A DNA stretch of 34,660 nucleotides from a virus: positions 1 through 34,660 of the IMG/VR virus record IMGVR_UViG_3300032284_003392; one strand, 5' to 3'. The notes beneath the pieces were generated by a model, which worked only from the letters and a program-made list of their open reading frames with translations, had not been told where the DNA came from and made no database searches. The number at the start of each line of letters is the position of its first letter. Within the stretch, counting starts at the first letter, position 1. Shown here piece after piece: positions 2,313 through 32,524 of the stretch. The translations under genes and the position numbers were made by a program.

Positions 2313-3293
2313 TCAGCTAAAGAAGCTCAATCTTGTCTGTGGAGCAAATCCGGGCTGTCCTGCTTCAGGTTCTGGTCTAACAGCCTGCGTTAAATTGTCG
2401 GTATCTACAGGCTTAAATAGATCGCTGCTCTGATATTCAGACCAACCATCATTATATTTTTCCCCATAAGAACCAGTCATGTTGTGGACACTATTCCACC
2501 ATGCTTGCTCTTCAGCAGATTCAGCTTTAACTTTTTTGCCTTTCTTGAGAGGCTTTAATCCTTTTTTAGCTCTTGTTGCATTAATTTTTGCAACGTGTTC
2601 AGCACTTTCACCTGCTTCTTTATCCTTATCTATATCAATTCCTGTTTCTTCTTCACGCTTTTCTTTTTTGCTATCGGACTTCATCTTTTTCTTGGAATAC
2701 ATAGGAGCATTAGTTCCATCTTCGTTGCCGGGACCCTTTTCTCCTTGTCTCTTACCAGCGTCACCACCTCGACCTCCAAGTGTCGGAGATTCATCTTCAT
2801 CTTCATCTTCGTCATCTTCATCTTCATCTTCATCTTCATCTTCATCTTCATCTTCGTCATCTTCATCATCTTCATCTTCATCATCTTCGTCTTCATCTTC
2901 GTCGGATTTCATTTTTTTCTTAGCATAAGCTCCGCACTTGCCACACTTTTTGGCATCTTCGTCATCACCATCTTCACTTTCTTCATCTTCGCCATTGTGG
3001 ACATCAACATCGACATCATCGCAAGTGCAATCTTCTTTGCTTTCGCCACATTTTTCGCATGTATCTTCTGGTTTATCTTTTTCTTCAGCAGGTTCGACTA
3101 GATCAGTGTCGCCATCTTCATCATCTTCGTCGTCCTTCATTTTTTTCTTGGCTTTTTTCTTAGCCATTTTAGTTTCTTCTAAATCCATAGCAAATTGGCT
3201 TTGAATGCCCAAATTTTGAGGATTAGCAATGCCGAGATTAAAACTCGGAAGGACAGATTCATTTAACATTTTCCATTGTTTGTATGATAACAT
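2313..3293 (-). CDS. Highly acidic Asp/Glu-repeat protein with Cys motifs and a T4-like N-terminal tag
   Basis: 326 residues, ATG at 3293 with a good GAAAGG site. Order: N-terminal MLSYKQWKMLNE, basic KKKAKKKMK, acidic linker, CEKCGESKEDCTC (a possible metal site), a second CGKCG, then about 50 residues of almost only Asp and Glu (encoded by 2790-2910), a Gly-rich linker, more KKKMK blocks and a C-terminal WWNSVHNMTG domain. The N-terminus resembles the T4 capsid-targeting peptide, and LNE followed by S fits the LxE site of T4 prohead protease. This suggests a scaffold or internal head protein, by inference. The acidic run could mimic nucleic acid or bind cations. It has its own terminator and divergent upstream neighbour. 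Confidence 0.7.
   Translation of the reverse strand: MLSYKQWKMLNESVLPSFNLGIANPQNLGIQSQFAMDLEETKMAKKKAKKKMKDDEDDEDGDTDLVEPAEEKDKPEDTCEKCGESKEDCTCDDVDVDVHNGEDEESEDGDDEDAKKCGKCGAYAKKKMKSDEDEDEDDEDEDDEDDEDEDEDEDEDEDEDDEDEDEDESPTLGGRGGDAGKRQGEKGPGNEDGTNAPMYSKKKMKSDSKKEKREEETGIDIDKDKEAGESAEHVAKINATRAKKGLKPLKKGKKVKAESAEEQAWWNSVHNMTGSYGEKYNDGWSEYQSSDLFKPVDTDNLTQAVRPEPEAGQPGFAPQTRLSFFS
2790..2911. repeat. (TCATCT)n-type microsatellite encoding the Asp/Glu run
   Basis: An imperfect hexamer array of TCATCT and TCGTCA units covers about 120 bases. It encodes alternating Asp and Glu on the minus strand, so it is likely to vary in length by slippage without loss of frame. Long Ser-rich frames on the opposite strand are an artefact of this array. 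Confidence 0.9.
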
Positions 3294-22566: not shown

Positions 22567-23187
22567 ATGGGACGAGCAATGGGACTAGGAAAGCTAGGCG
22601 GAAATAACCTAGTTTTCAAAAGAAAGTTTAGATGGACGTTCGCCGTGCAACCATACTGCGGCAGATCAGCCGGAATTCCAGAGTATTTTGTAAAAACCTC
22701 TGCAAGACCAAACGTTACAATTGAAGATACAGAAATTAACTTCCTTAATGGAAAAATGTGGATTCCCGGAAAAGCAACATGGGAAACAATCACAGTTACA
22801 TTTTATGATCTAGCAAGTGCTGACACTGGTGGAATTCAGTCTCTTTATGGCTGGTTAGCAACTGTATACAATTTTACAGATCCTATTAATTTGCAGCAGT
22901 CTTCAAGAAAGGGAGATCGCAGCACAACTGGCTATGGTGCAGACGGTACTCTAACACTATATGATGGTTGTGGAAACGGATTAGAAAGATGGACATTAAG
23001 AAATATGTTTCCAAGTGCGATTAACTTCGGAGAACTAGATTATTCATCTTCTGATGAAGTGACAATCGAACTAACCATTCGATATTCAGACGTTCAATTT
23101 GAAAACCTATGCGGTGGAGGCTTCGAGTTCTGCTGCGACGGTTGCGGACCTTCTAGCGGAGGAGTGGCTGGCGTTCCTCTGTCCTAA
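22567..23187 (+). CDS. 19: Tail tube protein 1 (T4 gp19-like)
   Basis: 206 residues (T4 gp19 is 163). KRKFRWTFAVQ, INFLNGKMWIPGKATWETIT, LYDGCGNGLERWTLRNMFP and INFGELDYSSSDEVTIELTI match the tube fold. The C-terminus adds a Cys/Gly-rich tail (CGGGFEFCCDGCG). Strong AAGGAG site. Directly after the sheath, as in T4. Confidence 0.85.
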   Translation: MGRAMGLGKLGGNNLVFKRKFRWTFAVQPYCGRSAGIPEYFVKTSARPNVTIEDTEINFLNGKMWIPGKATWETITVTFYDLASADTGGIQSLYGWLATVYNFTDPINLQQSSRKGDRSTTGYGADGTLTLYDGCGNGLERWTLRNMFPSAINFGELDYSSSDEVTIELTIRYSDVQFENLCGGGFEFCCDGCGPSSGGVAGVPLS

Positions 23188-23270: not shown

Positions 23271-23792
23271 ATGGCAAGATCAATGTCTTTTGATTTTGGA
23301 TTATCAAATCCAGAAACATGCTTTAAAAGAAAATTTCGATGGTTATTTAAAATTGCCGATGTAAGTGCAGAAGGAGTTGATGCACTACCTCCTTCTAGGG
23401 GTTCTAGACCAAGTTTTAGTTTCAAAGAAATTGAAGTGCAACACACAGCCGAAACTATTTATTTTCCCGGAAAACCAGAATGGAAACCTATAAGCCTGAC
23501 GCTTTATGACCTAAAAAAGAATGTGATGAATCCTGTCTTTGCATGGCTATCTGAAGTTTATAATCCCCAAAATAATAGCCTATACAAACCATCTTGCAAT
23601 GGTTTCAAAAAAGACGAAGCTACGCTAGAACTGTATGATGGATGTGGAAATACAATTGAAACTTGGGTATTTGAATCGATTTGGCCACAGGCAGTCGATT
23701 TTGGAGAATTAGACATGTCTCAAAGCGAAGTTGTCACTTGTGATTTAACACTTCGCTATGACAGAGCTTATATCAAATTAAATCCACAATAA
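23271..23792 (+). CDS. 19: Tail tube paralogue 2 (T4 gp19-like)
   Basis: 173 residues, closer to the T4 tube length. Shares KRKFRWLFKIAD, IYFPGKPEWKPISLTLYDLK, LYDGCGNTIETW and VDFGELDMSQSE with the gene at 22567. Possibly a tube terminator or minor tube, or a baseplate-end tube protein. AGGG precedes ATG. Confidence 0.8.
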   Translation: MARSMSFDFGLSNPETCFKRKFRWLFKIADVSAEGVDALPPSRGSRPSFSFKEIEVQHTAETIYFPGKPEWKPISLTLYDLKKNVMNPVFAWLSEVYNPQNNSLYKPSCNGFKKDEATLELYDGCGNTIETWVFESIWPQAVDFGELDMSQSEVVTCDLTLRYDRAYIKLNPQ

Positions 23793-27750: not shown

Positions 27751-28875
27751 ATGGCTGATGAAATTTTTCGTCCAAGACGCCCACAAAATCCAACAAATCC
27801 TAATGAAGACCAAAATATGCAAGAAGACCAAAATGAAGCTTTTGATCCCGGAGTTGCCCTAAGAAATCAGATCGCAAAAGAAAAAGGCGAAGATTTAACA
27901 GTGCCATCAGAAGGAGCACCATTCAACATTCAAGGAAATGCCCCTACTGAATTTTTAAAAGCACTCAAGGGAATAAAAAGTGGAGAATCTGACGAACCCA
28001 AGCGTGGATTTAGCCAAATGGGAAAAGAAGTTGCTCCTGCTCCACAAAAGCCTGCCCGACAAATAAGTTCAGGATCTGATCACTTAAGGGAATTGCTAGA
28101 AGGATTAAAAGGAAGTGCGACCACATATGAAGAAGTTGAACTTCCCTCAAAAGGCAAATTTTATGATGGCGAAAATGGTCCAGCCAACGGCATTGTTTCT
28201 ATTCGACCAATGACAGGCGAAGAAGAACAAATTTTGGCAACGCCTCGTTTTGTCCGCAAAGGGCAAGCAATTAATATGATCTTCCAAAGATGCATCAAAG
28301 AAAATTATCGCCCAGAAAATCTTTTAACAATTGACAGAACATATTTGCTGATTTATCTACGTGGCATTTCTTATAGCCCAAGTTATGATGTTGAAATTAA
28401 ATGTCCAGAATGCGATAAGAAATTTTCGACAACAATTGATCTAAACAGCCTTTTTGTTGAAAGTTGTCCTGATAATTATGGTCCAGTTCTCCAAGACATT
28501 CTACCAAACACAAAGCTACCTTTTGCATATCGTCTTGGAACGGGCAAAGATGAACAAGACATCTCAGATTATCGTGATAGAAGAATCAAAGCCTTCGGAG
28601 ATTCTTCTACCGATGACACACTGACATATAGAACATCTATGCTGCTTGACAACATTGACGGAATTGATAGCAAAAACGAACTTCAAATTCTTTTGAAGAA
28701 TCTTCCCATCAATGATGTATCTTATATCAGAAATTGCATCAACGAACCACCTTTTGGAGTTGATACAGATGTGGAAATTATTTGCCCAAGTTGTTTACAA
28801 GACTTCACAGTTGATTTACCATTAGAGTCAAATTTTTTCTTCCCACGGCGGAAGAAGGGGACGACCCAAGTTTAG
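27751..28875 (+). CDS. 26: Baseplate hub protein (T4 gp26-like), zero-frame product
   Basis: 374 residues. The first 125 are Pro/Gln/Asn-rich; from about 128 the sequence matches the T4 gp26-type baseplate domain: EEVELPSKGKFYDG, MTGEEEQILATP, CIKENYRPENLLTIDRTYLL and RGISYSPSYDVEIKCPECDK, with a second Cys pair IICPSC at the end, perhaps a structural zinc site. AAGGAG precedes ATG. The zero frame stops at 28873-28875 with a short basic tail, but a slippery site (28830-28839) probably diverts some ribosomes into the next frame. Confidence 0.75.
   Translation: MADEIFRPRRPQNPTNPNEDQNMQEDQNEAFDPGVALRNQIAKEKGEDLTVPSEGAPFNIQGNAPTEFLKALKGIKSGESDEPKRGFSQMGKEVAPAPQKPARQISSGSDHLRELLEGLKGSATTYEEVELPSKGKFYDGENGPANGIVSIRPMTGEEEQILATPRFVRKGQAINMIFQRCIKENYRPENLLTIDRTYLLIYLRGISYSPSYDVEIKCPECDKKFSTTIDLNSLFVESCPDNYGPVLQDILPNTKLPFAYRLGTGKDEQDISDYRDRRIKAFGDSSTDDTLTYRTSMLLDNIDGIDSKNELQILLKNLPINDVSYIRNCINEPPFGVDTDVEIICPSCLQDFTVDLPLESNFFFPRRKKGTTQV
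28830..28839 (+). other. Putative -1 ribosomal frameshift site A AAT TTT TTC
   Basis: In the zero frame (TCA AAT TTT TTC) two overlapping heptamers fit X XXY YYZ: A AAT TTT (28830-28836) and T TTT TTC (28833-28839). A hairpin TTCTTCC...GGAAGAA (28837-28843 with 28850-28856) sits just after. The -1 frame is open from 28815 to 29051. Confidence 0.65.
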
Positions 28876-29054
28876 CATTATGGAATTCATTAGCTGAAGA
28901 AATATTTTTCTTCCAATACCATTTAAGGTTAAATATGGCAGGATCAATGAGTTTGCCAATCAATTTAAGAAAATGGATGATTGACAGATTTATAGATCAA
29001 AAACAACAGGAAAATGAAGCAATGGAATCTGCTCGCAGGAAGTCAAGTAAATGA
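28839..29054 (+). CDS. gp51-like baseplate extension reached by -1 frameshift
   Basis: 71 codons in the -1 frame, from the slip site to TGA at 29052-29054: LPTAEEGDDPSLALWNSLAE, EIFFFQYHLRLNMAGSMSLP, INLRKWMIDRFIDQKQQENE, AMESARRKSSK. The IFFFQYHLRLN...LPINLRKWMIDRFI pattern resembles T4 gp51 (hub assembly). The frame has no ATG, GTG or TTG before ATG 28935, which would skip the conserved WNSLAEEIFFFQYH part. Read as a fusion with the hub protein it gives about 434 residues. Alternative: a sequencing indel in the T6 run. Confidence 0.6.
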   Translation, partial: LPTAEEGDDPSLALWNSLAEEIFFFQYHLRLNMAGSMSLPINLRKWMIDRFIDQKQQENEAMESARRKSSK

Positions 29055-29994: not shown

Positions 29995-30027
29995 TGGATG
30001 AAATCTTTTGCCATTGAAGGAAGCAAA

Positions 30028-31206
30028 ATGTCATCTGTTGCAAAGTTGGATTATTTAGTCAAGAACAGCAAAAATGTGCTTTTTATCGGAAAACATGGAG
30101 TTGGAAAAACCGGAATAACCGAGGAACTTTTCAATCGACACAAACTCAATTGGCGATATTATTCCGCTTCAACTATGGACCCGTGGGTAGATTTCGTTGG
30201 GGTTCCCAAGGAAAAAACCGATGGAAAAATTCCAGAACAATTTGAAGTCATTCGAGAATTGGCAAACATTGATGCAAATTTTGCTTGTGAATGGATTCAA
30301 AACAATTGGAAGATGAGTCCAGAATCATCCAGAAAAATTGTTTCTGATGTTATGAATCGGCAACAAGGATTAACATATCTAGACCTTGTTCGTCCATATA
30401 CGTTCGCAACTGGCGATATCGAAGCATTATTTTTTGATGAATTTAATCGTTCGCCAAAAAAAGTACGCAACGCCGTTATGGAACTCATTCAATTTAAGTC
30501 GATTAATGGACTTAAATTTCCAAAACTTCGTCTTGTTTGGGCTGCAATTAATCCAGATGACGATGAAGAAAACACATATGATGTTGAAAAACTTGATCCT
30601 GCACAACAAGATCGCTTTCACGTCACAATGGTAATTCCATACAAGCCAAATGCCCCTTGGTTCCGTCAAAGGTATGGAAATAAAATTGCAGATTCAGCAA
30701 TTGAGTGGTGGGATGAGCTTCCAAAAGAGCAACAAAATCTCATTAGCCCTCGTCGCTTGCAGTACGCTTTGGATTTCTTCGTAAATGACGGCGACATGAG
30801 AGATGTATTGCCATTGAAGTGTGGTGTAAGCAAACTCATTTCCGCTCTAAACAATGGATCTATTTCAGACAAATTGTCAGAACTTCTAACCAAAAAAGAT
30901 GATGTTGAAACCCGTATTTTCCTGCAAAATGAGAATCAATACGAATCAGCAATGAAGTATATTGAAAAATCTGAGACTTTAATCAATTACTTCATTCCTT
31001 TGATCCCGAAGGAAAAGATGGCGGCAATCATGAATGACAATGATAAACTTTGTCAGTTTATCATCAACAATTCTACAAAAATTGACGTTTTTGGTAATGT
31101 CTGCAAAGAAATTATATCTGCCAATACCAACAAACATCTTGTGCGTCGAATTCGAAGAACATTAACTGAAAATCAGGATCTGGCAGAAAATCTTTCGGAT
31201 AAATAA
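30028..31206 (+). CDS. MoxR-type AAA+ ATPase
   Basis: 392 residues from ATG 30028, which has GAAGGAAGC upstream; the earlier ATG 29998 would be at the promoter start. Walker A GKHGVGKT (21-28), Walker B ALFFDEFNR (about 133-141), sensor-1 VWAAINPDD and a lid with ISPRRLQYALDFF. The partner VWA gene follows after one base. MoxR ATPases typically remodel VWA-containing partners; substrate here unknown. Confidence 0.75.
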   Translation: MSSVAKLDYLVKNSKNVLFIGKHGVGKTGITEELFNRHKLNWRYYSASTMDPWVDFVGVPKEKTDGKIPEQFEVIRELANIDANFACEWIQNNWKMSPESSRKIVSDVMNRQQGLTYLDLVRPYTFATGDIEALFFDEFNRSPKKVRNAVMELIQFKSINGLKFPKLRLVWAAINPDDDEENTYDVEKLDPAQQDRFHVTMVIPYKPNAPWFRQRYGNKIADSAIEWWDELPKEQQNLISPRRLQYALDFFVNDGDMRDVLPLKCGVSKLISALNNGSISDKLSELLTKKDDVETRIFLQNENQYESAMKYIEKSETLINYFIPLIPKEKMAAIMNDNDKLCQFIINNSTKIDVFGNVCKEIISANTNKHLVRRIRRTLTENQDLAENLSDK

Positions 31207-31207
31207 C

Positions 31208-32524
31208 ATGGACGAAGAAATCAATCTCGACGTTGCATCATTTCCAAAATATAATCTTCGTATTTCAAACGAAGAATGGTTTGAAATTAGCCTTGCTCTA
31301 GAACCTCATCATGCTGTGTTTTATAAAATATGGCAAATGGGCAAACCTGTATTTAACGAAGAAATAGAAACTGCTGCTGTTCAGTTTGACGATCAAGGCA
31401 AATTCGTATGGTTTCATTTTAATCCTCAGTTTTGGAAAAGATTGCAATTTAAACATAAATTATTTGTTATTAGCCATGAAGCATTACACATTATTTTAAA
31501 TCATGGTATTCGTACCAAAGATTGCAATGTTAATCGAATGGCAACAAATGTCGCTCTTGATGTTGTTGTAAATCATACGCTTGTAAACAATTTTGGTTTT
31601 GCCAGACGAGATATCGTTGATTGGCAAGATTATTGTTGGGTTGATACAATATTCAAAGATAAAAAACCATTGCCCCCTGAGAACGAAATGTATGAATATT
31701 ATTACAATTTGTTCGAAAAAGTTTATGGGGATGGCGGTCCCGGAGATGGTGAAAATGGACCAAAAACAGTTGATGACCATGATGGTTTGTCATCTGGAAA
31801 TTGGGGAGAAGTCATAAAAGAACTCAGCGAAAGTCTTTCTGAGGAAGAAAAACAGTCGCTTAAATCAACAGTAAATAAACATTTTCAAAAAACTGAGACT
31901 GAGAATCAAAAAGCAGGCACAGGTACAGGTGGGCAATGGGTCTTTGCAAATGTAGAAAATGTTGCTCCCAAGAAAAAATGGGAAACTGTTATCAAAAAAT
32001 GGAGCAGAAAATATCTTACAACGACCGATAAAGACACAGAGCAATGGGTTCGTCTTAATCGACGCATGTGTATGTTGCCAAACGATATGTTTTTGCCAAG
32101 CGATATGGAAATCGAAGAATACGAAGACGATAAAACAAGAATTCAAGTTTGGTTTTTTCTTGATACTTCTGGATCTTGTTGGAATCTCAAGGACCGTTTT
32201 TTTAATGCAGCGATGAGTTTGCCAAAAAAACGATTTGATATTCGCCTCTTTTGCTTTGATACAAAAGTTGAAGAAACTACATTGGAAAGCCGCAAAATTT
32301 ATGGCGGTGGAGGAACTTCATTTAAAATTATCGAAGAAGAAATTCAAAAACATGTTTTACAAGGCGAAAATTATCCAGAAGCCATTTGGGTTATAACAGA
32401 TGGCTATGGTGATCGCATTAAACCCCAATATCCTGAAAAATGGTCATGGTTTATAACCAATGGCGGCTCTAAAACATACATTGATCCAAAATGTAATTTT
32501 TTTAATCTAAAAGATTATGATTGA
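31208..32524 (+). CDS. VWA protein with HEALH metallopeptidase motif (DUF2201-like)
   Basis: 438 residues. N-terminal domain has ISHEALHIILNHG (H90, E91, H94), a zinc-peptidase-like HExxH as in the DUF2201 N-domain, and NVALDVVVNHTL. The middle (170-260) is a flexible Gly/Glu region. The C-terminal VWA domain has WFFLDTSGSC (D319-S323, MIDAS) and VITDGYGD. Paired with the MoxR ATPase. Could be a regulated protease or scaffold; unproven. Ends 10 bases into the convergent gene. Confidence 0.75.
   Translation: MDEEINLDVASFPKYNLRISNEEWFEISLALEPHHAVFYKIWQMGKPVFNEEIETAAVQFDDQGKFVWFHFNPQFWKRLQFKHKLFVISHEALHIILNHGIRTKDCNVNRMATNVALDVVVNHTLVNNFGFARRDIVDWQDYCWVDTIFKDKKPLPPENEMYEYYYNLFEKVYGDGGPGDGENGPKTVDDHDGLSSGNWGEVIKELSESLSEEEKQSLKSTVNKHFQKTETENQKAGTGTGGQWVFANVENVAPKKKWETVIKKWSRKYLTTTDKDTEQWVRLNRRMCMLPNDMFLPSDMEIEEYEDDKTRIQVWFFLDTSGSCWNLKDRFFNAAMSLPKKRFDIRLFCFDTKVEETTLESRKIYGGGGTSFKIIEEEIQKHVLQGENYPEAIWVITDGYGDRIKPQYPEKWSWFITNGGSKTYIDPKCNFFNLKDYD

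Follow-up and report, generated by a model that had tools for sequence, protein, structure and literature searches.

A probable −1 frameshift joining gp26-like and gp51-like coding sequences in a putative tail assembly chaperone locus of uncultured phages

The gp26-like gene of an uncultured phage (IMG/VR record IMGVR_UViG_3300032284_003392; the window analysed is the whole stretch of 34,660 nt) very probably specifies two proteins, a short chaperone and, by means of a −1 frameshift, a minority long form with a gp51-like tail. A −1 frameshift joining the gp26-like protein to a gp51-like extension had been proposed in the initial annotation and is strongly supported by conservation across 42 loci. 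Under the proposed mechanism most ribosomes would read the gp26-like gene to its stop, yielding the short chaperone. A minority would slip back one base at T TTT TTC, since tRNA-Phe would re-pair from UUU UUC to UUU UUU, and would produce the long form bearing a gp51-like helical tail. By analogy with lambda and P2, both forms, present in a fixed ratio, would coat the tape measure protein, recruit tube subunits and then leave the tail.

The slip site and its predicted products

The features of the locus are listed in Table 1. The zero-frame DNA around the slip reads gag tca aat ttt ttc ttc cca cgg, and the two overlapping heptamers reported previously are both in the correct register. From the slip site the −1 frame contains no stop until the TGA at 29052-29054, in agreement with the end originally given for it. 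Slippage at either heptamer would yield the identical protein of 434 residues (363 + 71). The predicted sizes of 374 and 434 residues match those first proposed, and the N-terminal part is common to both products. Both readings of the dual-coded stretch are seen again in relatives.

Table 1. Positions of features at the gp26/gp51-like locus (window coordinates)
Feature	Position	Strand	Remarks
gp26-like short product, 374 aa	27751..28875	+	stop TAG 28873-28875; putative TAC-N / lambda gpG role
CPEC, first Cys pair, residues 218-221	28402..28413	+	C218 invariant, C221 nearly invariant (alignment A2)
CPSC, second Cys pair, residues 345-348	28783..28794	+	nearly invariant (alignment A2)
A AAT TTT heptamer overlapping T TTT TTC	28830..28836	+	~34/42 non-redundant relatives; not universal
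Slippery heptamer T TTT TTC, conserved −1 site	28833..28839	+	codons invariant in 42 relatives; 78/78 cyanophage-type loci
gp51-like extension, −1 frame, 71 codons + TGA	28839..29054	+	part of predicted 434-aa long product; putative TAC-NC / gpGT role
Dual-coded stretch	28840..28875	+	zero frame FPRRKKGTTQV, −1 frame PTAEEGDDPSL

The hairpin described just after the site proved weak. The 60 nt following the site were no more stable than shuffled sequences (z = −0.28), the shuffles being mononucleotide and hence a lenient control. Taken as a group, the 42 loci exhibited a mild excess of structure downstream (mean z of approximately −1.6 for the segment that begins at +27). RNAalifold gave a consensus fold of −2.7 kcal/mol across these loci, with no helix supported by covariation and no compensatory change. 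The hairpin was consequently rejected as a conserved stimulator, there being no conserved helix across the 42 loci. The proposed slippery pair stood in part, in that T TTT TTC is invariant in 42 of 42 loci and A AAT TTT, found in about 34 of them, is optional; the latter was rejected as a required site. Neither the hairpin nor A AAT TTT is needed for the frameshift case.

Conservation and distribution of the frameshift locus

A protein search of IMG/VR yielded 67 relatives. The site was scored in 68 records (L002-L067, the window and LR756511), and an in-register site followed by a long −1 extension was present in 67. The sequence of the lone exception, L056, ends before the site. The distant relative L068 carries its extension in the +1 frame in place of the −1 frame. 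Removal of near-copies left 42 non-redundant loci, which share descent, such that counts among them are not independent events. The comparison of the slippery site across related phages that had been suggested as a check bore out the proposal: TTT and TTC of the slip are each invariant (42/42), the synonymous difference there being 0.00, compared with 0.91 on average over the gene. A Phe codon situated 10-11 codons upstream serves as a control, since its ancestry is the same as that of the slip codons, and is divided between TTC (24 loci) and TTT (18 loci).

At none of the 42 loci is the −1 extension interrupted, against a median of 3-4 stops in the two remaining frames, so the open frame is not due to chance. 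Among unsaturated pairs, pN/pS was approximately 0.46 for the extension and 0.32 for the gene body, indicating that the −1 reading is under selection. From these features we infer that slippage occurs, at a rate that would leave the long form in the minority.

A base lost or gained through sequencing error or gene decay could in principle have split one gene in two, and the window is a single uncultured contig. The same arrangement recurs, however, in sequenced isolates and in over 60 additional contigs drawn from many metagenomes; the probability of this explanation is negligible, and it is already refuted by the sequences of the relatives.

The site extends beyond the window clade. T TTT TTC and an open −1 frame end gp26 in S-SM2, RaK2, Atu_ph07, Vibrio phage 2.275.O, PA5oct and LR756511. 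The same site is present in S-PM2, P-HM2, S-CRM01, R10Z, ACP17 and LPCS28; in RAS14 the T run is longer. A second search, made with the gp26 protein and blind to the slip motif, provided 80 further loci, 78 of them complete to the gene end; these were the best-scoring 80 of at least 600, are cyanophage-like and do not constitute a random sample. T TTT TTC was found in all 78 of the cyanophage-type genes that reach the gene end.

Slippage by RNA polymerase on the T run would add a base, so that some mRNAs would carry the fused frame; the run does precede the frame change, and the same protein would result. Six T residues are nevertheless short for transcript slippage, each window-clade or cyanophage-type site inspected has a run of exactly 6 T held in the X XXY YYZ register, and longer T runs are not favoured. 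We consider this explanation very improbable.

Only marginally more probable is translation of the extension as a separate small gp51 from its own start, by internal initiation or stop-start coupling and with no fusion. A separate gp51 is annotated in cyanophages, and an ATG at −1 codon 8 in 76 of the 78 cyanophage-type loci would allow independent initiation within that group. A TAATG stop-start overlap in Vibrio phage D507 (L087, 3672), the extension of which lacks T TTT TTC, likewise favours a separate start. Against this, no start codon is conserved in the window clade: none precedes the FFF.Y motif at 27 of the 42 loci, and those of the remainder share no common position. The earlier statement that the conserved part has no ATG, GTG or TTG holds for these 27 relatives and for the first 34 −1 codons of the window; it fails thereafter, as the earliest −1-frame ATG after the slip site in the window, at 28935, is within the conserved block. 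Independent initiation would also leave unexplained both the zero synonymous change at TTT TTC and the genetic fusion represented by T4 gp51. A −1 frameshift is the preferred reading for the window clade.

Other arrangements were observed elsewhere. The extension is in the +1 (= −2) frame in SP-15, LIS04, GXN1, immuto, MelJY01, LR756508 and L068, and in L072-L077 and L068 the shift seems to take place close to the FF codons or slightly downstream, as in the −1 clade. CBA120 (L083, 3813) has a −1 extension with neither T TTT TTC nor another clear site. A T4-type gp51 gene in L300 (approximately 2001-2746) is broken by a change of frame; as this break falls within the gp26-like body, at a distance from the slip position, it was rejected as a frameshift site.

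Homology to T4 gp26 and gp51 and the putative chaperone role

The window gp26-like protein matched PF12322 at 64.6 bits (curated cut-off 24.5; E = 1.4e-17) and, over the same span, residues 125-365, the phrog_150 'baseplate hub' family (E = 2e-20). Foldseek aligned it to the SP-15 baseplate hub subunit (E = 1.8e-20, TM 0.85 of the target). Full-profile PF12322 matches were obtained for both T4 gp26 (208 aa; 8.8e-64) and T4 gp51 (249 aa; 3.9e-52), which are themselves related by BLASTP (2e-6). The first ~200 residues of T4 gp51 are gp26-like, and the protein has in addition a phrog_634 'hub assembly catalyst' region (1.2e-23), a family corresponding to cyanophage gp51 (1.7e-26). As T4 gp51 is thus a gp26-like body plus a phrog_634 region, T4 gp26 corresponds to the short form and gp51 to the long form.

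The resemblance of the extension to T4 gp51 was traced by hhalign from the window clade to the SP-15 type (97.9%, E = 6.6e-13), from the SP-15 type to cyanophage gp51 (93.8%, 1.7e-7) and from cyanophage gp51 to the C-terminus of T4 gp51 (94.6%, 6.9e-8); the SP-15-type sequences used were translations of those loci. Direct hhalign comparison of the window extension with T4 gp51 was not significant, and a profile search found no direct match of the extension to phrog_634. The extension thus appears gp51-like, a likeness supported only transitively and visible only through intermediates, and the resemblance initially drawn to T4 gp51 is to be read as one with its C-terminal ~50 residues.

In a tree of 31 proteins the T4-type gp26 and gp51 formed sister groups whose support, 87/86, falls short of the starred level; both are placed among lineages employing the −1 site. 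Because the rooting of this tree is arbitrary, we only infer that T4 swapped the frameshift for gene duplication.

In SP-15, LIS04 and Flavobacterium phage immuto the gene order is sheath, tube, gp26, extension and tape measure. In the LIS04 record (L074) the interval from gp26 to the tape measure gene has no gene annotated. Within the window clade, gp26 comes after the sheath and tube genes. Its downstream neighbours are an uncharacterised short gene and then genes for an ATPase of the MoxR type and for a VWA/metallopeptidase-like protein, the latter assigned by eye from its sequence. In the window, the MoxR-like ATPase (phrog_1297) and the metallopeptidase/VWA-like protein occupy 29998-31206 and 31208-32524, and relatives L302 and L306 have similar neighbours after gp26. 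No tape measure gene was recognised beside gp26 in the 76 kb examined in each of the larger relatives G001 and G003. The tail tube gene appears duplicated, with adjacent gp19-like (phrog_4542) genes at 22567-23187 and 23271-23792 directly after the sheath gene. Elsewhere in the window, 2313-3293 on the minus strand encodes a protein of low complexity with a long Asp/Glu repeat run.

Sequence and fold searches of the PDB revealed no significant relative, and comparison with the fold of the HK97 chaperone (2OB9) was insignificant (E = 4.7, TM 0.41 of the target). A BFVD fold search recovered the gp26 family among viral models, with tail assembly chaperone (TAC) entries at the edge of noise. Of the original description as a gp26-like hub protein, the gp26-like part is upheld by the PF12322 match; gp26 is better read as a probable tail assembly chaperone than as a structural part of the hub.

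Comparison with known systems

The tail assembly chaperones of T4-like phages were identified by Vladimirov, Gautam and Davidson (2022, Virology 566:9-15), as cited in PMC12846349 and PMC10885494. The same study is credited with polyT slip sites in the TAC-N genes of this group (PMC12846349), and some T4-like phages are described as having a separate, fused long gene (PMC10885494). Judging from the title of that study, from the papers citing it and from the present homology results, we take the published T4-like chaperone genes to be gp26 and gp51. The suggestion that a gp26/gp51 frameshift is without known precedent is therefore withdrawn, going by these citing accounts: because T4-like TACs and their polyT slip sites are already published, the window locus adds a well-supported case to the published T4-like chaperone frameshifts and is not new in kind.

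The locus widens the range of the −1 form to include a large clade of uncultured giant phages, and it connects gp26 and gp51, T4 hub proteins that have long been puzzling, with the general long-tail chaperone mechanism. A 2010 review lists both as hub assembly chaperones, with gp51 'essential, of unknown function' (PMC3004832), and a 2016 review of frameshifting describes G-T frameshifting as widely conserved, T4 excepted (PMC5009743). The relatives indicate that the frameshift is common around T4, which itself holds both forms as two genes. In many genome records the long form is absent or cut short; the gp51 annotated in P-HM2 (L089, 3789-3881), at ~30 residues, covers the −1 extension only in truncated form.

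Evenly balanced, in our judgement, is the broader proposal that one homologous T4-superfamily chaperone locus keeps the short/long pair and swaps the route of production, the ratio and not the decoding trick being what is selected. The routes would comprise a −1 slip at T TTT TTC in the window clade, cyanophages and several jumbo phages; a shift of +1 or −2 near that position in SP-15, LIS04, Streptococcus phage GXN1 and Flavobacterium and Microcystis phages; possibly stop-start coupling in D507; and gene duplication in T4.

The T4-like chaperones gp26 and gp51, as far as the citing papers describe them, occur as short and long forms, as predicted for the window clade. T4 employs two genes and no frameshift, whereas the window clade employs a frameshift, has an extra N-terminal region of ~110 residues, mostly predicted to be disordered, and retains a zero-frame tail of ~12 codons after the site. 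The short/long pairs G/GT of lambda and E/E' of P2 are matched by the two predicted gp26 forms of the window and occupy the same gene place as gp26 and its extension in SP-15, LIS04 and immuto; the CxxC pairs of gp26 are a point of difference. For the Vandenendeviridae (phage Adele), in phage families different from the window clade, a −1 frameshift late in TAC-N was likewise proposed from a conserved open −1 frame, there at a GTTTTT motif (PMC12846349). In a different phage lineage again, orf143/144 of 0305phi8-36 (PMC2147016) represent a two-gene G/GT form without a frameshift, like T4 gp26 and gp51.
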